From an uncultured Trueperaceae bacterium (GTDB lineage Bacteria; Deinococcota; Deinococci; Deinococcales; Trueperaceae): a stretch of DNA of 15,510 nt. The DNA is taken from positions 1-15,510 of the forward strand of contig CALCHY010000260.1 of assembly GCA_937907415.1 (NCBI GenBank). Direction: 5' to 3'. Positions 1-15,510 of this stretch are shown here, in pieces. Position 1 is the first letter of the stretch, and each line of letters opens with the position of its first letter. Under the pieces are notes generated by a model that saw only the letters and a program-made list of their open reading frames with translations, was not told where the DNA came from and did not search any database. The position numbers and the translations under genes are program-made.

Positions 1-9
1 CCGCTTAAG

Positions 10-55
<46 letters not shown>

Positions 56-842: not shown

Positions 843-860
843 CTGACAAAACTGACGAAA
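843..860 (+). repeat. Solo copy of the CTGACRRAA tandem 9-mer
   Basis: CTGACAAAACTGACGAAA is two 9-bp units in tandem. It differs at two of 18 positions from 12732-12749 and also resembles the inverted copy at 12771-12788. Unlike those copies it has no facing inverted partner here. Possible roles are an iteron-like binding site or a remnant of a former hairpin. Confidence 0.5.
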
Positions 861-1170: not shown

Positions 1171-3045
1171 GTGCCGGAGCTAGTCTTCAAAGGTAAAGAG
1201 TTCGTCTACAACCATCACCTAAGCGTGCCGTTCCGGCCGCTCGTGGTGCACGCCGATAAGGGCATAGGCGACGCCAACCTCGATGACAACCTCATCATCA
1301 ACGGCGACAACTTGCACGCTCTAAAAGCACTCCTTCCCATGTATGCCGGAAAGGTGGACTGCGTGTTCATCGACCCGCCATACAACACAGGTAAAGAGGG
1401 CTGGAGCTACAACGACAACGTCAACAGCCCCATGCTCCGCGAGTGGCTAAACAGCAACCCCATCACGATCGAGGACGGACTGCGCCACGACAAGTGGGCA
1501 GCAATGATGTATCCGCGCTTGAAACTCCTTCACGAACTCATCGCCGATACCGGCATCCTGTTCGTCACGATCGATGAGCACGAGGGGCATCGACTCGAAC
1601 TTATCCTCGACGATATCTTCGGTTCTGAGAACAATCTCGGGCGCATCATTGCTCGCCTAAACCCGAAGGGTCGACACTTAGATCAGTTCTTCGCCAAGAC
1701 CCACGAGTACGTACTCATATTCGCCAAGGACGTGAGCGCAACCGAGCTAACTGGCGTTCCCAAGACCGAGAAAATGCTCGCTGAATACAACGAAGAGGAC
1801 GACAAGGGTCGTTTCCGTCTACTAGAGCTGCGAAACCGCAACTCCGCCTTCAACCCAAAGACACGACCAAACCTCTACTTCCCTCTGTACATAAATCCGC
1901 ACACCGGCGAGGTGTCTCCAAACCGCGACGAAGAGCACAGCGAGGAAGCCTTGCCGCTCGACTCAGCTGGAAATCCGACCTGCTGGACGTGGAGTATTCC
2001 AAAAATACGAAGCGAGAACCACTTAGTTGTCGGACGTCAGTCATCACAAGGTGGATGGCGGGTCTTTCGCAAGGACTATCTTGCAGACGAAGAAGGCAAG
2101 GAAGCAAGGACGAAACCCAAGACCATTTGGTTGGACGCTGACCTCAACATGGACTTGGCCCGAAAAACTGTTACAGAAATCATGGGCGGGAACGTCTTTG
2201 ACTTCCCAAAACCTGTTGCCTTGGTGGAGAAGCTTCTGCAGCTACTTCCGAACCCAGAAGCGCTAGTTCTTGACTCATTTGCCGGATCAGGAACTACGGC
2301 CCATGCAGTCCTAGCTGCTAATGCCAAGGATGGTGGAGATCGGAAGTTCATCCTGGTCGAGATGGAGGACTACGCCGATGATCTAACTGCTGAGCGAGTT
2401 CGCCGCGTCATCAACGGTTACTCCTTTGCGGGGACACAGCGTGACGAACTGCTGAGGGAGAGGATCACCTGGACGAAACTCCAGCAAGCTAACAGGCTCT
2501 TAGAGCAGGTAGAAGGGCTTGAGAACGCCTATGGCCCCAGCTATGACACGATCCGGAAGTCGGTGACTAACGGAGAGTTGGTTGTTACCGGGGAAAAGAA
2601 GGTCGAGGAGAGAGCAGAAGGTCTTGGCGGTACGTTTACCTACTGCACGCTTGGTGATCCTATCGACATGGACAGCCTACTGACCGGCGAGAACTTGCCA
2701 TCCTTCGAGGCGCTCGCAAGCGTCCTCTTCCACACCGCCACGAACACACCACTGCCCACAGAGACGATGGAGACGGATGCGCTGGGTCAGCCGGGTCACG
2801 GCTACCTAGGCGAAGCCGCAGGGGTCCACGTATGGCTCATCTATCAGCCGGACCTAGAGTACCTGAAGTCGAGCGACGCCGCCCTCACCCTCACGAAGGC
2901 TAGGAGCATCGCCGAGACACGCGAGGGTCGCCATGTGGTGTTCGCACCCGCGCGCTTCGTATCCCAGAAGATGCTCAACGACTCGGATCTCCCCGTCGAG
3001 TTCGCACCGCTCCCGTTCGCGCTCTACCGCGTCGAAAGGGAATAG
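1171..3045 (+). CDS. mod: Type III restriction-modification methyltransferase subunit (Mod), adenine-N6
   Basis: The 624-residue product is an S-adenosylmethionine-dependent DNA adenine methyltransferase. Catalytic motif IV, DPPYNTG, is at residues 68-74 and follows the typical Mod sequence with GDN and LLPMYAGKV. The AdoMet-binding motif I, DSFAGSGTT, is at about 368-376. This order (IV before I, recognition region between) is the beta class used by type III Mod proteins. Mod recognises the target and is needed for both methylation and cleavage. The GTG start is supported by AGAAGGGG about 8 bases upstream. Its stop lies 2 bp before the res start, so the genes are translationally coupled. 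The middle of the gene, around the recognition region, is AT-richer (29/60 GC at 1981-2040 and at 2221-2280) than the end (40/60 at 2881-2940). The target sequence cannot be read from the protein. Confidence 0.93.
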   Translation: MPELVFKGKEFVYNHHLSVPFRPLVVHADKGIGDANLDDNLIINGDNLHALKALLPMYAGKVDCVFIDPPYNTGKEGWSYNDNVNSPMLREWLNSNPITIEDGLRHDKWAAMMYPRLKLLHELIADTGILFVTIDEHEGHRLELILDDIFGSENNLGRIIARLNPKGRHLDQFFAKTHEYVLIFAKDVSATELTGVPKTEKMLAEYNEEDDKGRFRLLELRNRNSAFNPKTRPNLYFPLYINPHTGEVSPNRDEEHSEEALPLDSAGNPTCWTWSIPKIRSENHLVVGRQSSQGGWRVFRKDYLADEEGKEARTKPKTIWLDADLNMDLARKTVTEIMGGNVFDFPKPVALVEKLLQLLPNPEALVLDSFAGSGTTAHAVLAANAKDGGDRKFILVEMEDYADDLTAERVRRVINGYSFAGTQRDELLRERITWTKLQQANRLLEQVEGLENAYGPSYDTIRKSVTNGELVVTGEKKVEERAEGLGGTFTYCTLGDPIDMDSLLTGENLPSFEALASVLFHTATNTPLPTETMETDALGQPGHGYLGEAAGVHVWLIYQPDLEYLKSSDAALTLTKARSIAETREGRHVVFAPARFVSQKMLNDSDLPVEFAPLPFALYRVERE

Positions 3046-3047
3046 CA

Positions 3048-5666
3048 GTGCTGCGCGACCTGGACTATCAAGCGCGAGTCCTAACCGTCGTTGATGACTA
3101 CCTGACGCACCTCATCGACGAGAAGAAGCGTGCCGACCGCGTCCACGATCTGGCCAAGCAAGACCCTGACCTGGGCCTGGAAGTACCAGACCACGCCGAG
3201 AAGGCTTGGGAAGCCTTGAAGCAGGCGGGTAAGCTCCCCGCCACACGCGCCAACATCCCCTTCTCGCCCCGTAAGGACGGCATCGGCCGTAGCGTGCCTA
3301 ACGTGGTGCTCAAGGTGCCTACCGGCGGCGGCAAGACCTACCTCGCTACCGCCTCGCTGTCTCGGATCATGGGCCGGTACCTCGGGCAGAACTCTGGCTT
3401 CGTGCTCTGGATCGTTCCGAACGAAGCCATCTACACGCAGACCCTCAAGCAGCTCAAGGACCGGGAGCACCCGTACCGGCAGATGCTGGACCGCTCGGCA
3501 GCGGGCCGCGTGAAGATCATGGAGAAGAACGATCCCCTCAACGCCCGGGACGTCGAGACGCACCTCTGTGTCATGGTCCTCATGCTGCAAGCCGCCAACC
3601 GCGAGACCAAGGACTCCCTCAAGATGTTCCAGGACCGCGGCGACGTCCACGGCTTCTTCCCACCCGAAGGCGACCAGGCCGCGCACCAAGCTGCGCTTGA
3701 CGCCACCCCGAACCTAGACGCCTACAGCGCCGCCGCAGGCTCCGGGAGCATGTGGCCGATGGTCAAGGACTCCCTCGGCAACGCGCTGCGGCTAATCCGG
3801 CCGGTCGTCGTCATGGACGAAGGGCATAGGGCCATCAGCGATCTAGCGTTCAGGACGCTCTACGGCTTCAACCCTGCCTTCGTCCTCGAACTGACCGCAA
3901 CCCCCGTGGACGTCGCAGCCCGAGGCGGGAGAAACCCGCGCGAGGCGCGCTACGCCAACGTCCTCGTGGACGTCCTAGGAGTCGAGCTGCTGCGCGAGGG
4001 CATGATCAAGATGCCCCTCAACCTCGCCACCCTCCAAGAGGCCGACTGGCGCAACACCCTCAACGCCGCCCTCGATAAGCTCGATGAACTACAGGCAGCC
4101 GCCAGCGAGCACCGGGCCAACGGCGGAAACTACATCCGCCCCATCATGCTCGTACAGGTCGAGCGTACCGGCGAAGACCAACGCGACGGCAACCACATCC
4201 ACGCCCTAGACGTCAAAGAGTGGCTCGCGCAAGCCGGGCTCGACCCCGACGCCGAGATCGCCATCAAGACCGCCGACGTCAACGACCTAAACAACCCCGA
4301 GAACCAAGACCTGCTAGCGCCCACCAACCGCGTGCGCGTCATCATCACCAAGCAAGCGCTGCAAGAGGGCTGGGACAACCCCTTCGCCTACGTTCTCTGC
4401 TCCCTAGCGGCCAGCTCCAGCCTCAACAGCATGACCCAGCTCGTCGGCCGCATCCTCCGGCAACCCCACGCCGAGAAGACCGGCGTCGAAGCGTTAGACG
4501 AGTGCTACGTATACGCCCACCATGCCTCAACCGCCGACGTCGTTCAAGCCGTCAAAACCGGTTTGGAAGAAGGCGGCCTCGGCGACTTGGTAAGAGAAGT
4601 CCGCCAGGAAGACGAAACCGGCGGCACGACAAATGGGCCCCGCAACATCCCCCGCCGTGCTGAGTTCCGAACCACCGAGATCTACCTACCGAAAGTCCTC
4701 AAGATCGAGCGGGGACAAGCCCGGCTGCTCGACTACGACACGGACATCCTCTACCAGCTCGACTGGACCGACCTCGACATTAGACCTCTCGTGGCTCGCA
4801 TACCAACGAACTTCCAGGCGGCCGAGAGCCAGCTGCAGCGCATCACCCTCACCGAGGGACAAGAACGCATCGTCGCCGAAAGGGTCGAAGCCAACAAAAC
4901 CGTTCACGCCCTCGACCCCGCCTACCTGGTCAGGCTTACCTCCGACATCGTGCAGAACGCCTGGATAGCCCGCGACATCGTCGGCAGGCTCCTAGACGGT
5001 CTCAGGGCGTGCGGCTTCACCGACGAACGCCTCGGACAACTCTCCAGCCTGATCTTGAGCGAACTCCGCAAGTACCTCGCCGAGAAACGCGACGAGAAGG
5101 CTGAGCAACTCTTCCGCCACGAGGTCTCCTGCGGCAACGTGCAGTTCCGCCTCCGCGCCGACGGCGCCAACTGGCGCATGCCCCAAGCGTCCATCACCAC
5201 CGAGCCCGAGAACGCTCCGCAAGTCACCGGCCTCGACGGCGGCCCCCTACAGAAGAGCCTCTTCGCGCCCCAGTACGCCGCTGAATTCAACCCCGATGAG
5301 CGCGACGTAGCCGTCTACCTCGATGCCGAAGAGACCCTTCGCTGGTGGCACCGCAACGTCGCCCGCAACCAGTACTACGTGCAGGGCTGGCGACGCGGCA
5401 AGATCTACCCCGACTTCATCTTCGCCGCACGACCCGACGGCACCGCGAACCGCATCACCGTCCTAGAAACCAAAGGCGACCACCTCGGCGGCAACGAGGA
5501 CACCACATACAAGGCGGCCGTGCTCGACCTACTCACCGGCGCTTTCCAGTGGGACAAGACCGTCCCGGCCGGACAGATGGAACTACTCACCGAAGACGGA
5601 ACCACCGTCCAGTGCGAACTGGTACTCATGGATGCTTGGCGAACAAGATTGCCTGCACTTTTGTAG
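3048..5666 (+). CDS. res: Type III restriction enzyme subunit (Res), helicase-endonuclease
   Basis: The 872-residue product is a superfamily 2 helicase/translocase with a nuclease tail. Walker A, PTGGGKT, is at residues 91-97; the DEGH box at 257-260; motif III, TATP, at 283-286; and a motif VI-like QLVGRILRQP at about 464-473. The C-terminus carries a PD-(D/E)xK nuclease signature: YPD with D789, then E807-T-K809. Res acts with Mod, using ATP hydrolysis to communicate between two inversely oriented sites and cutting nearby unmodified DNA. All key residues are present, so the enzyme looks intact; at 872 residues it is somewhat shorter than classical Res proteins of about 970. The GTG start 2 bp after the mod stop is preceded by GAAAGGGA within the mod end. 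An unusual helicase-nuclease defence system using the same domains is a less likely alternative. Confidence 0.92.
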   Translation: MLRDLDYQARVLTVVDDYLTHLIDEKKRADRVHDLAKQDPDLGLEVPDHAEKAWEALKQAGKLPATRANIPFSPRKDGIGRSVPNVVLKVPTGGGKTYLATASLSRIMGRYLGQNSGFVLWIVPNEAIYTQTLKQLKDREHPYRQMLDRSAAGRVKIMEKNDPLNARDVETHLCVMVLMLQAANRETKDSLKMFQDRGDVHGFFPPEGDQAAHQAALDATPNLDAYSAAAGSGSMWPMVKDSLGNALRLIRPVVVMDEGHRAISDLAFRTLYGFNPAFVLELTATPVDVAARGGRNPREARYANVLVDVLGVELLREGMIKMPLNLATLQEADWRNTLNAALDKLDELQAAASEHRANGGNYIRPIMLVQVERTGEDQRDGNHIHALDVKEWLAQAGLDPDAEIAIKTADVNDLNNPENQDLLAPTNRVRVIITKQALQEGWDNPFAYVLCSLAASSSLNSMTQLVGRILRQPHAEKTGVEALDECYVYAHHASTADVVQAVKTGLEEGGLGDLVREVRQEDETGGTTNGPRNIPRRAEFRTTEIYLPKVLKIERGQARLLDYDTDILYQLDWTDLDIRPLVARIPTNFQAAESQLQRITLTEGQERIVAERVEANKTVHALDPAYLVRLTSDIVQNAWIARDIVGRLLDGLRACGFTDERLGQLSSLILSELRKYLAEKRDEKAEQLFRHEVSCGNVQFRLRADGANWRMPQASITTEPENAPQVTGLDGGPLQKSLFAPQYAAEFNPDERDVAVYLDAEETLRWWHRNVARNQYYVQGWRRGKIYPDFIFAARPDGTANRITVLETKGDHLGGNEDTTYKAAVLDLLTGAFQWDKTVPAGQMELLTEDGTTVQCELVLMDAWRTRLPALL

Positions 5667-5994: not shown

Positions 5995-6918
5995 CTATTC
6001 GAAGTTGATCTCACTCGCCATCTTTTGGACCTGCGCTTCGTGTTCCTCCCGCTTCCTTTGAGCCTGCTCTTCCTCTAGTCTCCGGCGCTCCTCAAGACGC
6101 AGTAAGTTGGCATTCGCTTGCTCCACGGCAAGGACGAGAGTATCCCGATGGTAGTTCCTTACTTCATCCATTGTGGTTCCATCGAGCAGCACCTTGTCGC
6201 CGACCACTCGCGCGATCCCAGGACGATGCATGGAGGTGAAGCGCGGGGGATAGTTCCAAGCCTCTACGAAGAGCCTCGACCACTCGACTGAGGGCGTTCG
6301 TGAGAGGCGGAAGGGCACTCTGTAGAGCCCACTTCCAGGACTTCCATCTAGTGTCGGTTGTGTCACTTCGTCTACTATCACACCGACGATGCGTATGGGC
6401 TCATCTGCTTCAACTCGTGCCTGCGCGTCCGTCCGCTGACTTCCACCGGACGGCCTTCGAGCGACCACCGGAGGAGCTTGTTGGCGCTTACCGAGGATCG
6501 TTGCCAGCAAGTCCGCATAGCCCCTCTCGTAGGCGCCGTCTCGAACATCAACAAAGACTTTCCCTCGGAGCCACGACGGTGCGCTTTCAGCCCACTCGCC
6601 AAGTCGCAGTACAGGAATGAACTTCCTATGCCGCCTTTCGGCCATGACCTCAGACGTCATGATGTCGCCCTCGTACCCGACACCGCCTTGGCGAGAGTCG
6701 GACTTAGCTCTATAGGTAGGGGTGCACACGATGAGGACAAAGTCGTTGGTTCTGACCGCATCTTCCATGAACTGAGGCAGCTGGTCCCCCGGCGCAAGGT
6801 GCCACTGATCCAGAGTGACGTCAACCCCATCACCTCTGAATCGGGTTGCCAGGTCACGAACCCACGACCGCACCTCGTCGGACTCCCAAGCATATGAGAT
6901 AAAGGCCTTGGGTGGCAT
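5995..6918 (-). CDS. TIR/SEFIR-domain protein with conserved-looking C-terminal domain and coiled coil
   Basis: From the ATG at 6918 the product has 307 residues. Residues 3-115 form a SEFIR/TIR-type domain: KAFISYAW at the first strand, LDQWHLAPGDQLPQFM after the second, VLIVCTPTY as a later strand, then GGVGYEGDIMTSEV. Glu83 in GYEGD occupies the place of the NADase glutamate of bacterial TIR domains, an alignment-based inference. A Pro/Ser-rich linker (about 138-155) leads to a second globular region around 163-255 containing MHRPGIARVVGDKVLLDGTT and YHRDTL. A Glu/Arg-rich coiled coil follows at 260-300. Many bacterial TIR/SEFIR proteins are antiphage effectors that deplete NAD or signal to partners; here the second domain would be the sensor or oligomerisation part. 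A TTG 30 bases upstream (6948) could extend the protein by 10 residues; I chose the ATG because the domain begins right after it. Confidence 0.85.
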   Translation of the reverse strand: MPPKAFISYAWESDEVRSWVRDLATRFRGDGVDVTLDQWHLAPGDQLPQFMEDAVRTNDFVLIVCTPTYRAKSDSRQGGVGYEGDIMTSEVMAERRHRKFIPVLRLGEWAESAPSWLRGKVFVDVRDGAYERGYADLLATILGKRQQAPPVVARRPSGGSQRTDAQARVEADEPIRIVGVIVDEVTQPTLDGSPGSGLYRVPFRLSRTPSVEWSRLFVEAWNYPPRFTSMHRPGIARVVGDKVLLDGTTMDEVRNYHRDTLVLAVEQANANLLRLEERRRLEEEQAQRKREEHEAQVQKMASEINFE

Positions 6919-7044
6919 AGGACTATAGTACCCACTCCCGAGGCCCAAAGCTTCCGTGTCTGGAACGGCTCTTGAGGCACGCCGTACAACCAGATATGGC
7001 CCGAGTATGCGAACCCAACTTCTGATGTGCCCAAATGCCGCTTG

Positions 7045-10647: not shown

Positions 10648-10754
10648 GCGTCACGCCACGATCCCGGAACCACTTGAAGCCGAAGGGGCGTGGGCCAGAA
10701 GCCACCCCTACATCAACCGCGACCTCCGCCCACGAGAAGGTGCTAGGAGTTCTT
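10648..10754. promoter_or_regulatory. Divergent regulatory region between the zinc-ribbon gene and the excisionase-like gene
   Basis: This 107-bp spacer must contain the promoters of both divergent units. An imperfect inverted repeat, AGGGG-CG-TGG (10684-10693) facing CCACCCCT (10702-10709), could be an operator. TAGGAG (10744-10749) is the ribosome binding site of the excisionase-like gene. No confident -35/-10 pair was found. Confidence 0.45.
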
Positions 10755-10952
10755 GTGCAAGACCGCAACACGAAGCCCCTTCTTAGCCCCGACGAGTTCC
10801 GCTACGCGCTTGGCGGCGCCATCGGCCGCGGCAACGTCTACGAACTTCTCCGAGCGGGACGCATCCGGCACATCAAGCTGGGCCGCAAGATCCTCATCCC
10901 GTACAGCGAGGTCAAGGCGTTCATCGAACGCGAAGCCGCCACGAGCGCATGA
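10755..10952 (+). CDS. Excisionase/AlpA-like helix-turn-helix DNA-binding protein
   Basis: From the GTG at 10755 the product has 65 residues and matches the excisionase-family fold: LLSPDEFRYALGG, GRGNVYELLRAGRIRHIKLGRKILIPYSEVKAFIERE. The sequence reads as a MerR-like winged helix with the wing around KLGRKILIPYS. Such proteins bend att DNA to direct excision, and AlpA-type members also activate int. The GTG is chosen because TAGGAG stands five bases upstream; an ATG at 10674 would add 27 low-complexity residues with no homology. The stop overlaps the DUF3987 start as ATGA, so excision and replication functions are co-translated. Confidence 0.82.
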   Translation: MQDRNTKPLLSPDEFRYALGGAIGRGNVYELLRAGRIRHIKLGRKILIPYSEVKAFIEREAATSA

Positions 10953-12712
10953 CAGCCCCAGCCGCCACCCTCCGGCGCATCGACGGCAAGCTGACCGCCC
11001 TCGCGCAGCTCACGGCCGCCGCCCCCGGACGCGTCGATCAGCTCACCGCCGAGTACCGCCACCTCAGCCTCTTCGACTGGCCTGCGGACGGCGAACAGCG
11101 CCTCGCCAGCCTCGAAGCTGAGCTTGACGCCGCCCTGACCGCAGACGCCGACCAGCCCCTAGATGGAGCCTGCTGTCCTGACGACGCCGAGGAGCCCGAG
11201 GTTACTTGGCCGCAGCCGCTGCCCCTGACCGAGGCTGAGGTCGCGCCCGGCATGCCGCCTGACCTCCTGCCAGAGCCGCTACGCGCTTGGTTGGTCGACG
11301 AGGCCGAGCGCATGAGCGTGCCCGTCGAGATGATCGCCATCCCAGCCGTCGTGTCGCTCGGAGCCGTCGCCGGGCGCAACATCGGCCTATACCCCAAGCG
11401 CTACGACACCTGGCAGGTCGTCCCCAACCTCTGGGGCGCCGTCATCGCGCCGCCTAGCTCTATGAAGTCCCCCGCCCTGCAAGAGGGCACGCGCCACATC
11501 GAACGGCTCGCCGCAGACGCCATAGCCGCCTACGAAGCCGACCGTCACGTGCGCGACGCCAAGGTCGCCATCCAAGAGGCCAAGCTGTCGAAGCTCTACA
11601 AGGAGGCGGCAGGCGCAACGCCCGGGATCACCCTTACAGAGCAGATCGCCGCCGCCAACCGGGAGATCGAGGCGCTGCAGCGCCCGGTGAAGCGCTACAC
11701 CACTAACGACCCCACCGTGGAGATGGCCACCGAGCTGCTTCGCACCAACGAGCGGGGCCTGCTGGTCATCCGCGACGAGCTGGTGGGCTTGCTCGTCTCG
11801 TGCGACAAGCCTGGCCGTGAAGGCGACCGCGAGTTCTTCCTTGAGGCATTCAACTCCAAGGCGAACTACACCGTCGACCGCATCGGCCGCGGCACCATCC
11901 ACGTGCCCGCACTCACGCTAAGCATCGTCGGCGGCGTGCAGCCCGGGAAGATGGAGGCCTATGTGCTGGGCGCCGTCTCCGGCGGCAGGCAGTCCGACGG
12001 TCTGCTGCAGCGCTTCCAGCTCGCCGTCTACCCGGAACCGCTGACCGACTACGTGCACGTCGACCGCCCCATCGACCCCACCGTAAGGGAGGGCGCGCAA
12101 CGCCTCTACCAGGCGCTCGCCGACCTCGACCCGGCCGCCCATCCCGAGCTCGAACGTCAACCGGGCCGGTTGCCCGGCCTGCGCTTCACCCCCGAGGCGC
12201 AGGAGGAGTTCGACGCCTGGTTCACGGCGCACATGCGACGCCTCCGCTCACGCGAGCTGAGCGACACGCCCGCCTACCTGGCTCACCTAGGCAAGTACCA
12301 AGCGCTCGTCGCCAAGCTCGCGCTGCTGTTCCACCTGATCGACAGCGTCGACGACGCCGAGCTGCGGCCGGTGAGCGCCGCAGCACTACGCTTGGCGATC
12401 CGCTGGACCAAGTACCTGGAGGCGCACGCGCGCAAGCTCTATGCCCCCGAGTTGACGCGCAAGACGGAGAACGTGCGCCAACTCGCTCACCGCCTCATCG
12501 CCGGTGACCTGGAGGACGGCTGCTCCGTGCGGGACATCTACCGGCGCGGCTGGCGCGGCCTCAAGACTAAGGCCAGCGTCCAACAGGCCGTCGAGCACTT
12601 GGCTGCGCGCGGCTGGCTGCGCCTCGAAGGCAGCCCCTCCGGTACCGGACGCCCCACCGAAATCATCCGCACCAACCCGCTGCTCGACTTCGCAGCCGAC
12701 CTCGACCTCTAG
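10949..12712 (+). CDS. DUF3987-family helicase/primase-type ATPase
   Basis: The 587-residue product belongs to the DUF3987 family common in integrative elements and satellites. After a helical N-terminal segment (1-100), the family core begins at VAPGMPPDLLPEPLRAW (98-114) and WGAVIAPPSSMKSPAL (162-176), where APPSSMKS at 167-174 takes the place of Walker A. LLVIRDEL, with D276-E277, is the Walker B. The last 70 residues (VRDIYRRGWRGLKTKASVQQAVEHLAARGWLRLE) look like a winged helix. No separate primase catalytic domain is evident. The protein is inferred to be the element's replication helicase or initiator. It overlaps the excisionase-like gene by 4 bp and is followed by the large palindrome at 12729. 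The degenerate first loop (PPSSMKS rather than GxxGxGKS) is a family trait, not damage. Confidence 0.87.
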   Translation: MTAPAATLRRIDGKLTALAQLTAAAPGRVDQLTAEYRHLSLFDWPADGEQRLASLEAELDAALTADADQPLDGACCPDDAEEPEVTWPQPLPLTEAEVAPGMPPDLLPEPLRAWLVDEAERMSVPVEMIAIPAVVSLGAVAGRNIGLYPKRYDTWQVVPNLWGAVIAPPSSMKSPALQEGTRHIERLAADAIAAYEADRHVRDAKVAIQEAKLSKLYKEAAGATPGITLTEQIAAANREIEALQRPVKRYTTNDPTVEMATELLRTNERGLLVIRDELVGLLVSCDKPGREGDREFFLEAFNSKANYTVDRIGRGTIHVPALTLSIVGGVQPGKMEAYVLGAVSGGRQSDGLLQRFQLAVYPEPLTDYVHVDRPIDPTVREGAQRLYQALADLDPAAHPELERQPGRLPGLRFTPEAQEEFDAWFTAHMRRLRSRELSDTPAYLAHLGKYQALVAKLALLFHLIDSVDDAELRPVSAAALRLAIRWTKYLEAHARKLYAPELTRKTENVRQLAHRLIAGDLEDGCSVRDIYRRGWRGLKTKASVQQAVEHLAARGWLRLEGSPSGTGRPTEIIRTNPLLDFAADLDL

Positions 12713-12728
12713 CCACACACCCCAGCAG

Positions 12729-12791
12729 CCACTGACAGAACCGACGAAACCCTCCGGAGGCTACGGGGGGTTTTGTCAGCTCTGTCAGTGG
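12729..12791. repeat. 63-bp near-palindrome made of facing CTGACRRAA tandem repeats
   Basis: The outer arms CCACTGACAGA (12729-12739) and TCTGTCAGTGG (12781-12791) pair perfectly, and the inner stem continues with few mismatches through GACGAAACCC/GGGTTTTGTC to a small loop. Each arm contains two 9-bp units: CTGACAGAA-CCGACGAAA on the left, and CTGACAGAG-CTGACAAAA when the right arm is read on the minus strand. The T-run lies inside the stem, so this is not a standard terminator. It stands between the DUF3987 stop and the next gene. An origin or single-strand initiation site, or an RNA regulatory structure, are the leading ideas. Confidence 0.75.
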
Positions 12792-12818
12792 CCGTTCACC
12801 TCTAAGGAGACAGACAGC

Positions 12819-13295
12819 ATGACCCACGCCACCCGCCTCTCGATCGACCGCTCGCGCGAGTTCATCGACTACAGCGGCAGCGTCTTCAAGCACCTCACCG
12901 ACGCCAATGTCCGGATCGCCAACTGGAAGAGCCGCCTCCCCCGTGCCGCCTTCCAAATTCAGGAGGAGCTACGCGTCCCGCCCACGACCCCAGGTCTAAC
13001 CGACCTCCTCACGACGTTCTGGCAGGACCTGGATGCTCTCACGTGTAGTCCGCTAGTCGAGGAGACCTTCGGCGTAGACCTGACCGGCGTGCCAGATGAC
13101 GCCATACGGCTCATAGCGTTCTACGCGCTGACCACCCTGCTGCCCGGCCAACGACCGGATAACCCCCTTATGACCCCAAGCATTCTCAACATCAAGATCC
13201 TCGTGGCCCTTGGTCTAGGTCTTCTTCAGGACGGACGTCGAGACGAGGCGCTAGAGATTCTGGCGGAAGCAGTGAAGCACGTGCCCGTCAGCTAG
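12819..13295 (+). CDS. Hypothetical helical protein, 158 residues
   Basis: I do not recognise a family. The protein is predicted to be largely helical and soluble. Its C-terminal part (about 120-155: ILNIKILVALGLGLLQDGRRDEALEILAEAVKHVP) reads like one TPR-type helical hairpin. I placed the start at the ATG preceded by AAGGAGA (12804-12810); the frame stays open upstream into the DUF3987 gene, but only as a shadow through the palindrome. It lies between the replication ATPase and the integrase, suggesting a backbone role, possibly regulatory. Confidence 0.75.
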   Translation: MTHATRLSIDRSREFIDYSGSVFKHLTDANVRIANWKSRLPRAAFQIQEELRVPPTTPGLTDLLTTFWQDLDALTCSPLVEETFGVDLTGVPDDAIRLIAFYALTTLLPGQRPDNPLMTPSILNIKILVALGLGLLQDGRRDEALEILAEAVKHVPVS

Positions 13296-13382: not shown

Positions 13383-14516
13383 ATGGCACGACGCCGCGCG
13401 AAGGGCGATGGCAGCATCACCCGCCGCAAGAACGGCCTCTGGCAGGCCGCCACCACCATCGGCTACGACGAAAACGGCAAACAGCAACGAAAGACCGTCT
13501 ACGGCAAGACCAAGGAGGAGGTGCGCAAGAAACTCGAAGAGCTGCGCCAACAGGCCAGCAGCACCGGTATCCCCATCGAGGACCCTACGCTAAGCGCATA
13601 CCTGGAGCGCTGGCTGACCGAGAAGGCGCGCCAGGTGAAGCCGCGCACCATTGAGTCGTACCGCTACACGGTCGAGAAGTACATCACCCCCAATCTCGGC
13701 CGCGTGAGGCTCGGCAAGCTCACGCCACTACGCGTCCAGGCAGCGCTCGGCGAGATCGCAGACGAGGTAAGCCCCCACACGAGCAACTACTGCCGTAGCA
13801 CCCTGCGCACAGCGCTCGACCAGGCCGTCAAGTGGCAGCTCCTGCCGCGCAACCCAGCCGCGGCGGTCGACACCGTCCGCGCCGAGAAGCGCGAGATGAC
13901 GCTATGGACCACCGAGCAGATCGGCCGCTTCCTAGCGCAGGCCGAACGGCACCGCCTCCACGCCCTCTTCTACCTGGCTATCACCTCCGGCCTGCGCATC
14001 GGCGAGCTACTGGCCCTCACCTGGAGCGACCTGAAAGGCAGCACCCTCCACGTCCGGCGCAACCTCACCAAGCAGGATGGCCGCCTCACCCTCGCCAGCA
14101 CCAAGACCACCAAGGGCCAGCGCCTGGTGGCGCTCGCAGCCGACACGCTGGAGGTCCTCGCGGAGCACCGGCAGCGCCAGGACGCCGAGTTAGAACTGGC
14201 AGGCGAAGGCTGGGCGAACCCAGGCCACATGTTCACCACCGAGATCGGCACCTTCCTCGACCAGCGCAACGTTCTGCGGGTCTGGCACCGCCTACAGGAC
14301 CAGGCCGGCGTCCCACGCGCTCGCCTCCACGACGCCCGGCACCTCCACGTATCGCTCCTGGTTCGGCACGGCCTCGACGCCAGCACCATCGCCGACCGCG
14401 TTGGCCACACCAACCCCGCCTTCACGCTGCGCCAGTACACGCATCTCTTCGAGGAGCAACGCCTAGCGGCCGCGGTGCCACTCGATAAACTACTCGCCCC
14501 GGTGAACCAGACCTAG
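13383..14516 (+). CDS. int: Tyrosine recombinase (phage-type integrase)
   Basis: The 377-residue product has all three integrase domains. Residues 1-60 are an arm-binding beta-sheet domain (GDGSITRRKNGLWQAATTIGYDENGKQQRKTVYGKTKEEV), 65-165 the core-binding SAM-like domain, and 175-365 the catalytic domain. The catalytic residues are visible: R205 in TSGLRIGELL, K241, H316-x-x-R319 in LHDARH, H342 in VGHTNPAFT, and the nucleophile Y352 in LRQYTHL. It should integrate and excise the element at the tRNA-Ala anticodon loop, binding the 11-bp arm repeats with its first domain. CTAAGGAG nine bases upstream supports the ATG. Length is normal and no key residue is missing, so it looks active. Confidence 0.96.
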   Translation: MARRRAKGDGSITRRKNGLWQAATTIGYDENGKQQRKTVYGKTKEEVRKKLEELRQQASSTGIPIEDPTLSAYLERWLTEKARQVKPRTIESYRYTVEKYITPNLGRVRLGKLTPLRVQAALGEIADEVSPHTSNYCRSTLRTALDQAVKWQLLPRNPAAAVDTVRAEKREMTLWTTEQIGRFLAQAERHRLHALFYLAITSGLRIGELLALTWSDLKGSTLHVRRNLTKQDGRLTLASTKTTKGQRLVALAADTLEVLAEHRQRQDAELELAGEGWANPGHMFTTEIGTFLDQRNVLRVWHRLQDQAGVPRARLHDARHLHVSLLVRHGLDASTIADRVGHTNPAFTLRQYTHLFEEQRLAAAVPLDKLLAPVNQT

Positions 14517-14804
14517 CCTCCGGGATCCCCCACCGACTGCCCGGCCGTGCCGATAGGTCCAAACCAATTATGTGAGACAGGCCCGCGGCACGGCACAAGC
14601 ATCTTAGAGCGCCTACAACCCGCCTCTACTTCTTAGGCTAGAAGGGGCAGGCGTCAGTGGACGTTGTTCCTTTACCGCCCGCCACCAACTGTATCGCCTT
14701 GTTATACTTCCAGATACCTTAGAATCGTGGACAAACAGCACAGAAACCCAAATCACGACAGGGAAGATGATCTCGGCCCACTACGGAGGGTCTAAAGGAG
14801 ATAC
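14517..14804. other. 288-bp spacer between int and the right cargo gene
   Basis: Two features are visible. GCCGTGCCG (14544-14552) and CGGCACGGC (14586-14594) are perfect 9-bp inverted copies with a 33-base loop, perhaps the end structure of the int transcript, though no T-tract follows. A promoter-like pair lies farther on. GC falls markedly along the spacer, marking the backbone/cargo junction. Confidence 0.5.
14699..14725 (+). promoter_or_regulatory. Candidate sigma-70-type promoter for the right cargo gene
   Basis: TTGTTA (14699-14704) and TAGAAT (14720-14725) resemble -35 and -10 boxes (4/6 and 5/6 matches), with a rather short 15-base spacer. TATACT at 14703 is an alternative -10. The site is about 80 bases before the GTG start in AT-rich sequence, so independent transcription of the cargo gene is likely. 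Confidence 0.4.
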
Positions 14805-15434: not shown

Positions 15435-15455
15435 GCGTCTGGGACGCGCTTTACT

Positions 15456-15510
<55 letters not shown>

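Follow-up and report, generated by a model that had tools for sequence, protein, structure and literature searches.

Closest described systems and the Trueperaceae locus

In phage-inducible chromosomal islands and Staphylococcus aureus pathogenicity islands (PICI and SaPI), the replication origin lies immediately 3' of rep and consists of two sets of short, element-specific iterons flanking an A+T-rich region (PMC6092414; this and the other papers cited were consulted in part). Replication of pRN1 of Sulfolobus requires a 100-bp stem-loop situated 54 bp past a helicase gene whose product has a winged helix at its C-terminus; the stem sequence varies among relatives (PMC4234260). The same paper states that the winged helix of the primase-helicase alpha of phage P4 reads origin repeats. 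A comparable arrangement is found on contig CALCHY010000260.1 of an uncultured Trueperaceae bacterium (15,510 nucleotides; this whole stretch was analysed and is called the window below). A DUF3987 gene is followed there by a palindrome of facing tandem 9-bp units. It is likely that this palindrome is the iteron-type replication origin of an integrated element, and that the adjoining MCM-like DUF3987 helicase reads it via the winged helix and loads there as rings from the two sides. The relevant features are as follows.

12728..12792, no strand: proposed core of the iteron origin, two tandem pairs of 9-bp units in inverted orientation
12732..12740, + strand: unit 1, CTGACAGAA
12741..12749, + strand: unit 2, CCGACGAAA
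12750..12770, no strand: spacer, 21 nt, A+T 0.19, not A+T-rich
12771..12779, - strand: unit 3, CTGACAAAA (TTTTGTCAG on the + strand)
12780..12788, - strand: unit 4, CTGACAGAG (CTCTGTCAG on the + strand)
843..860, + strand: second, single tandem pair, CTGACAAAACTGACGAAA
10949..12712, + strand: DUF3987 gene, encoding 587 aa with the predicted fold of an MCM-like AAA+ helicase and a winged helix at the C-terminus; Pfam PF13148, E 9.4e-73
12461..12709, + strand: C-terminal region, residues 505-587, winged-helix-like in the predicted model
12542..12544, + strand: codon of Arg532, the residue co-varying with unit base 3

A 63-bp palindrome at 12729..12791 had been proposed in a reading of the letters alone (the sequence-only reading). 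It is indeed present, and 12728-12792 is the longest among the inverted repeats listed for the window, with arms at 12728-12759 and 12761-12792 (32 nt each, 84% complementary). The suggested common unit CTGACRRAA is exact in two of the four units and one letter off in the other two. The four-unit score of 41 is the window maximum in a sliding scan (runner-up 38) and was reached by none of 200 dinucleotide shuffles (z 4.7; z 5.8 with gaps of at most 60 nt). The DUF3987 open reading frame (ORF) ends at 12712 and the first unit begins 19 bp later. Thus several short direct repeats adjoin the initiator-candidate gene, as in iteron origins.

The window protein matches PF13148 at residues 124-499 with 245.9 bits, the curated cut-off being 27. 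The AAA+ fold of its predicted structure (predicted local distance difference test score 92.8) is closest to MCM folds. The winged-helix-like elements of the model are helices 507-517, 527-533 and 541-553 and strands 557-561 and 571-575; a MarR_2 match at residues 523-563 is weak and falls under its cut-off. DUF3987 occurs in 6-21% of the sampled genomes, depending on the group, and a tblastn search of large phages with the window protein gave a single weak DUF3987 match.

As in PICI, the repeats of the window stand directly 3' of the initiator-candidate gene and form two sets, and an integrase and a small regulator are encoded nearby (PMC6092414). The differences are that the space between the repeat sets of DUF3987 loci is not A+T-rich and is often shorter than 10 nt, the outer flanks being richer, that the candidate initiator is a DUF3987 protein, and that the units have period 9 with no gap between them. 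The pRN1-family origins and the stem-loop of phage BIP-1 resemble the palindrome in lying 3' of a winged-helix helicase gene and in having an element-specific sequence. However, the pRN1 helicase is of superfamily 3 (SF3) and fused to prim/pol, its authors report no iterons in the parts consulted, and stem integrity mattered (PMC4234260), whereas the putative DUF3987 origins have tandem units and give no sign that pairing itself is kept. It is this layout, an initiator-helicase gene followed by facing repeat sets, as in PICI origins and resembling pRN1, that suggests an origin. The phage P4 alpha system has two separate sites, ori and crr, and the window similarly has a second half-site at 843-860 besides the palindrome. 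In contrast, P4 alpha is of SF3 type with a Toprim primase and its repeats differ; it was set apart by description, not by sequence.

Two further systems bear comparison with the window. The phage-inducible chromosomal minimalist islands (PICMI) of Vibrionaceae have a core of integrase, AlpA-type regulator and DUF3987/DUF5906 primase, and deletion of the primase lowers replication; the consulted parts of the paper describe neither iterons nor an origin (PMC10803314). The window likewise has an integrase, an HTH_17 protein and DUF3987, but lacks a fis site and carries defence genes; PICMI are known here by description. Cch (DUF927), proposed to replicate the staphylococcal cassette chromosome (cited in PMC5862659), is an MCM-like helicase on a mobile element, as is predicted for DUF3987, but belongs to a separate Pfam family. 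The C-terminal winged helix was predicted in 2018 as a possible recogniser of origins (PMC5862659).

Facing repeats at the 3' ends of DUF3987 genes

DUF3987 genes were found by protein, and two tandem 9-mers facing two more were sought near their 3' ends with no sequence preset. All 200 shuffles were beaten at 64 of 106 genes, compared with 2 of 92 upstream flanks and 2 of 106 mid-gene controls; at z>=4 the controls gave 0/92 and 0/106. Five loci with a missing 3' end were left out of this test. In the first set, 83 of 151 distinct genes had repeats of period 9 at z>=4, other periods being rare (7 genes for period 7, 10 for 8, 5 for 10, 10 for 11 and 5 for 12). In a later set the count was 23 of 74, with 1/74 in the mid-gene control; six loci without a 3' end were left out, and one gene is counted twice in each of two pairs, L342/L357 and L320/L326.

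At least one gene with facing repeats is present in each of the seven sampled taxonomic groups. The counts are 10/22 in Alphaproteobacteria, 16/28 in Gammaproteobacteria, 9/20 in Actinomycetota and 6/24 in Bacteroidota in the 151-gene set, and 11/21 in Deinococcota, 7/26 in Verrucomicrobiota and 5/27 in Planctomycetota in the 74-gene set. The 151-gene set also contains two viral sets (31/34 and 8/17), of which the first is an unfair sample because it was seeded from motif-bearing loci, as well as the window (1/1), yfjI of E. coli K-12 (0/1) and four plasmids, where Bartonella pBT01 and an Acinetobacter plasmid have the repeats and those of Rhodovastum and Sulfitobacter fall below z 4. In a VapE-like control family, four of six loci were testable and one reached z 5.3, the sample being small. 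Five Bacteroidota loci (L264, L265, L284, L285, L286) have facing tandem repeats of period 7 or 8 without a period-9 signal. The sequence-only reading had guessed at a widespread, poorly described element recurring near related genes, and both parts of this guess are supported; in the consulted part of the open-licence literature, no description of 9-bp repeats linked to DUF3987 was found.

A gene-blind scan of genome and viral collections with the pattern CTGACRRAACTGACRRAACCC listed 60 and 31 stretches, respectively. CTGAC units are over-represented among the loci found in this way (L001-L091), which were excluded from the prevalence counts. Among the ORFs beside pattern sites (70 listed), 34 of the 66 scanned were DUF3987, and such an ORF is present in 44 of 92 pattern-found loci, the window counted. 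Some of the other loci have a terminase, DnaB/Toprim or cobyrinate synthase-type gene instead. In a group of viral contigs (L061, L062, L065, L067-L069, L076, L078, L080, L081, L083, L084, L087, L089-L091), tandem CTGACAAAACTGACAAAACCC precedes TTTTGTCA by about 40 nt, further single units come after, and the surroundings of the motif contain no DUF3987 ORF; conceivably, the unit serves another user there. Nine whole genomes and one viral record each contain between one and four copies of the tandem motif. The exact copies all lie at one spot in eight of these nine genomes, and the reversed pattern gave no match. A blastn search of plasmids with the palindrome gave two short matches at chance level.

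Among 49 loci that are 5 kb or longer, 8, the window included, carry their own units a second time at a distal position, whereas no shuffle gave such a copy. The pair CTGACAAAACTGACGAAA at 843-860 has units as in the palindrome and lies about 3.5 kb from it across the joined element ends. In L060 and in the L033/L030 region there are extra arrays of CTGACAGAA-type units at a spacing of about 50-90 nt; thus the number of arms varies.

Co-variation of the unit with a helicase residue

The sequence of the unit is private to each element, and the units of one locus change together. The cores observed include CTGAC, CCGAC, CTGCC, CCTAC, CCCCC and CCCTC, each before a purine-rich RRAA tail, and there are quite different units such as CGCAATATC, TTGGTGAAG, ACGAATTAT and TGCTAAAGT. 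The unit sequence varies with that of the protein encoded next to it (Spearman 0.556, at most 0.191 in permutations). The compensatory change sought in homologues is thus found insofar as all units of a locus change jointly, but pairing of the hairpin is not specially preserved.

The residue equivalent to Arg532 of the window protein, within the motif RDVxRKxWxGL of the C-terminal winged helix, follows base 3 of the unit. It was first spotted by eye and then tested across all 481 usable columns. The set comprised 77 loci, pattern-found L001-L091 among them; 17 that could not be phased were left out. In the remaining 60, arginine was present in 45 of 45 loci with G at base 3 and in 0 of 15 with another base, the best of the 481 columns. 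The mutual information of 0.811 equals the label entropy, the next column having 0.168. In seven sister pairs picked by hand as independent switches, residue 532 changes in all seven, compared with two for the best other conserved column. New loci that could be phased, a small set, gave four cases of G with Arg (L342 and L357 being one gene), one of T with Gly and no contradiction. In a divergent subfamily, GCGA units go with Arg in 3/3 loci and GCTA units with Gln in seven, L181 counted.

An enlarged set of 81 loci includes four from the 74-gene set and 18 units whose frame was set by hand (three shifted CTGAC/CCGAC types and 15 GCNA types). Residue and base agree in 77 of these 81 partly hand-phased loci, compared with 63 for the best other column. 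The combinations are G with Arg (54) or Val (1); T with Gln (10), Leu (3), Val (2), Gly (2) or Arg (3); and C with Lys (4) or Gln (2). On a tree of the ATPase domain there are 14 switches of unit class, compared with 16 each for the residue class and the joint state. L357, the same gene as L342, is not in the 81-locus set; L326, which repeats the gene of L320, was counted for prevalence and is absent from the tree.

Given this co-variation, the DUF3987 protein very probably reads the 9-bp units, and the tie between the iteron-like units and the gene that the sequence-only reading had assumed is supported by both the recurrence at 3' ends and the residue-base agreement. Since the unit changes in step with one helicase residue, the palindrome is probably the element's own replication start. 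The C-terminal winged helix would bind the units, residue 532 reading base 3, with arginine for guanine. On the excised circle, two helicase rings pointing in opposite directions could form at the two facing pairs, and the primase and polymerase of the element or the host would then begin synthesis. We infer helicase loading, a bidirectional start, and that the site is an origin and not some other target of the DUF3987 protein.

The repeats often lie in reading frames. Where the arms are 3' of the stop codon, both of them are spanned by another ORF, 50 aa or longer, in 59 of 74 loci. Of the arm-spanning ORFs in which a core can be recognised, 14 read it in codon phase 0, 27 in phase 1 and 4 in phase 2; as all three phases are used, it is DNA rather than a peptide that is kept. 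The Thr-Asp-Lys-Thr-Asp-Lys shadows that the sequence-only reading mentioned for other mobile elements do occur, for instance as TDKTDKT and TDETDKT. In many proteobacterial loci (e.g. L059, L147, L156) a small ORF starting at or near the DUF3987 stop codon, often with the N-terminus MGRWL or MSxWL, crosses both arms. In L021 and L013 the tandem units are within the DUF3987 frame, read in the former as TDKTDKT ahead of the winged helix and in the latter as SVSSVS.

Role of the palindrome in the integrated element

The window is an integrated element with the following further features.

5..55, no strand: left copy of a 51-nt direct repeat resembling a tRNA 3' end, element end
15451..15501, no strand: right copy of the 51-nt direct repeat, 96% identical
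10674..10952, + strand: HTH_17 / excisionase-type small protein, overlapping the DUF3987 start
12819..13295, + strand: small ORF 3' of the palindrome, without family match in PADLOC or NCBIfam
13383..14516, + strand: tyrosine integrase

ARAGORN found no complete tRNA at the 51-nt repeat. The element also encodes Rad52-like and ArdC-like proteins and carries defence cargo, namely a type III restriction-modification pair (1171-5666, + strand) and a SEFIR/TIR protein (PADLOC bSEFIR; 5995-6948, - strand). The closest protein match found has 94% identity and comes from a Trueperaceae metagenome assembly.

Several observations weigh against an origin at the palindrome, or against its recognition as proposed. 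About 45% of the genes of the first set and two thirds of those of the second, as well as yfjI of E. coli K-12, are without repeats at z>=4. The A+T content between the arms is 0.406, compared with 0.402 in the genes, so that there is no A+T-rich stretch, and the window itself, with 0.19 in its spacer, has no evident melting region. GC skew along the element, proposed earlier as a check, is most extreme at 14632 and 4013 and not at the palindrome. The residue-base code has exceptions: the clade L309/L310/L320 combines GCTA units with Arg, and L144, counted as non-G by local consensus in the 60-locus test, has CCGAC in a wider array and is an exception in the 81-locus set. Finally, the partial correlation of the whole domain with the unit is 0.25 for the winged helix and 0.215 for the ATPase region, and residue 532 belongs to helix two of the fold (527-533) rather than to helix three. 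As the winged helix is hardly better tied to the unit than the ATPase region and the residue is in the second helix, direct contact of residue 532 with base 3 can only be presumed.

The 40-nt outer flanks are more A+T-rich than the gene (0.483 vs 0.402, p 1.6e-14). An A+T-rich box with the consensus CgctTTTGagAAAAat occurs about 12 nt outside the right arm in L156, L158, L159, L166-L168 and others (log-likelihood 252, compared with 79-100 in shuffles), and some loci have a mirror on the left. As a mirrored element it was rejected: overall, mirroring the left flank gave no better score than leaving it unmirrored (Wilcoxon p 0.30; 24/83 loci with p<0.05). The box often codes for a similar peptide of the small ORF and may reflect that peptide. 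For these two reasons it is not claimed as part of the site.

One possibility is that the units are bound by the DUF3987 protein at a site for autoregulation, partition, incompatibility or copy control, or at a replication fork barrier. Indeed, co-variation indicates recognition, not purpose, and the distal copies, including the pair at 843-860, mean that the sites of the protein may be of different kinds. However, the position 3' of the gene is odd for autoregulation, and this position together with the two-set layout matches the tested PICI origins and pRN1 as described in the consulted parts of the papers. We therefore regard a site other than an origin as unlikely, if worth keeping in mind.

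It is quite improbable that the palindrome is a structural signal (a cruciform, a single-strand initiation hairpin or an RNA hairpin) in which pairing matters rather than unit sequence. The window fold is strong, with z = -5.6 for the RNA of 12700-12820 and none of 200 shuffles as stable, and replication of pRN1 was restored by mutations restoring stem symmetry (PMC4234260). However, pairing does not require tandem identity within an arm. Summed over 83 loci, the nested register pairs at 1300 of 1494 positions and the unit-swapped register at 1316, and the mismatches of nested pairing include 51 G.U and 65 A.C, so that G.U is no commoner. Where gaps of up to 60 nt were searched, the arms are 1 to 60 nt apart, with quartiles of 8, 17 and 28.5 nt; in some other loci they are about 150 nt apart. 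The residue-base co-variation points to sequence reading. Thus hairpin pairing as such is not specially preserved, and the cruciform or single-strand fold of the sequence-only reading is not retained as the working feature. The order of A/G variants in the two arms is swapped in 18 columns and palindromic in 9 (78 distinct loci), a hint only that pairing is not perfected. An RNA function of the hairpin was also rejected: among six Rfam matches in region 12400-13100 none was near its family gathering score, there is no wobble excess, and the nested register is not preferred.

A transcription terminator or another ordinary 3' hairpin of the DUF3987 gene is highly improbable: the site is located after the stop codon, but no terminator-like site was reported at the palindrome in the window scan, the T-run lies within the stem, as had been argued earlier against a simple terminator, a further ORF commonly crosses both arms, and the units are private 9-bp repeats matched by a protein residue. 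A chance or spreading palindromic repeat, similar to miniature inverted-repeat transposable elements or repetitive extragenic palindromes, can practically be dismissed: the repeats do fall in coding frames of small ORFs, but the upstream, mid-gene and other-period controls are low, exact copies keep to one spot in 8/9 genomes, and the unit tracks the neighbouring protein.

The origin, read by the adjoining helicase, would have wider consequences. Tentatively, and with rather less than even confidence, we suggest that a large family of bacterial mobile-element MCM-type helicases carries a two-sided origin 3' of its own gene. The 9-bp units would be read by a one-residue code at base 3 (G corresponding to Arg, C to Lys or Gln, and T to Gln, Leu, Val or Gly), and the facing pairs would load two rings head to head without a separate loader similar to the origin recognition complex, as a minimal bacterial counterpart of the archaeal and eukaryotic double hexamer.

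For DUF3987, an uncharacterised family, the finding gives a probable job, that of an initiator helicase, and a probable target beside its own gene. The winged-helix prediction of 2018 (PMC5862659) is turned into a testable rule. The residue-base rule predicts which elements share origin specificity, and the origins of many unstudied integrative elements and satellites become findable by script. The DUF3987 system may also serve as a small model for how an MCM-like ring loads itself.
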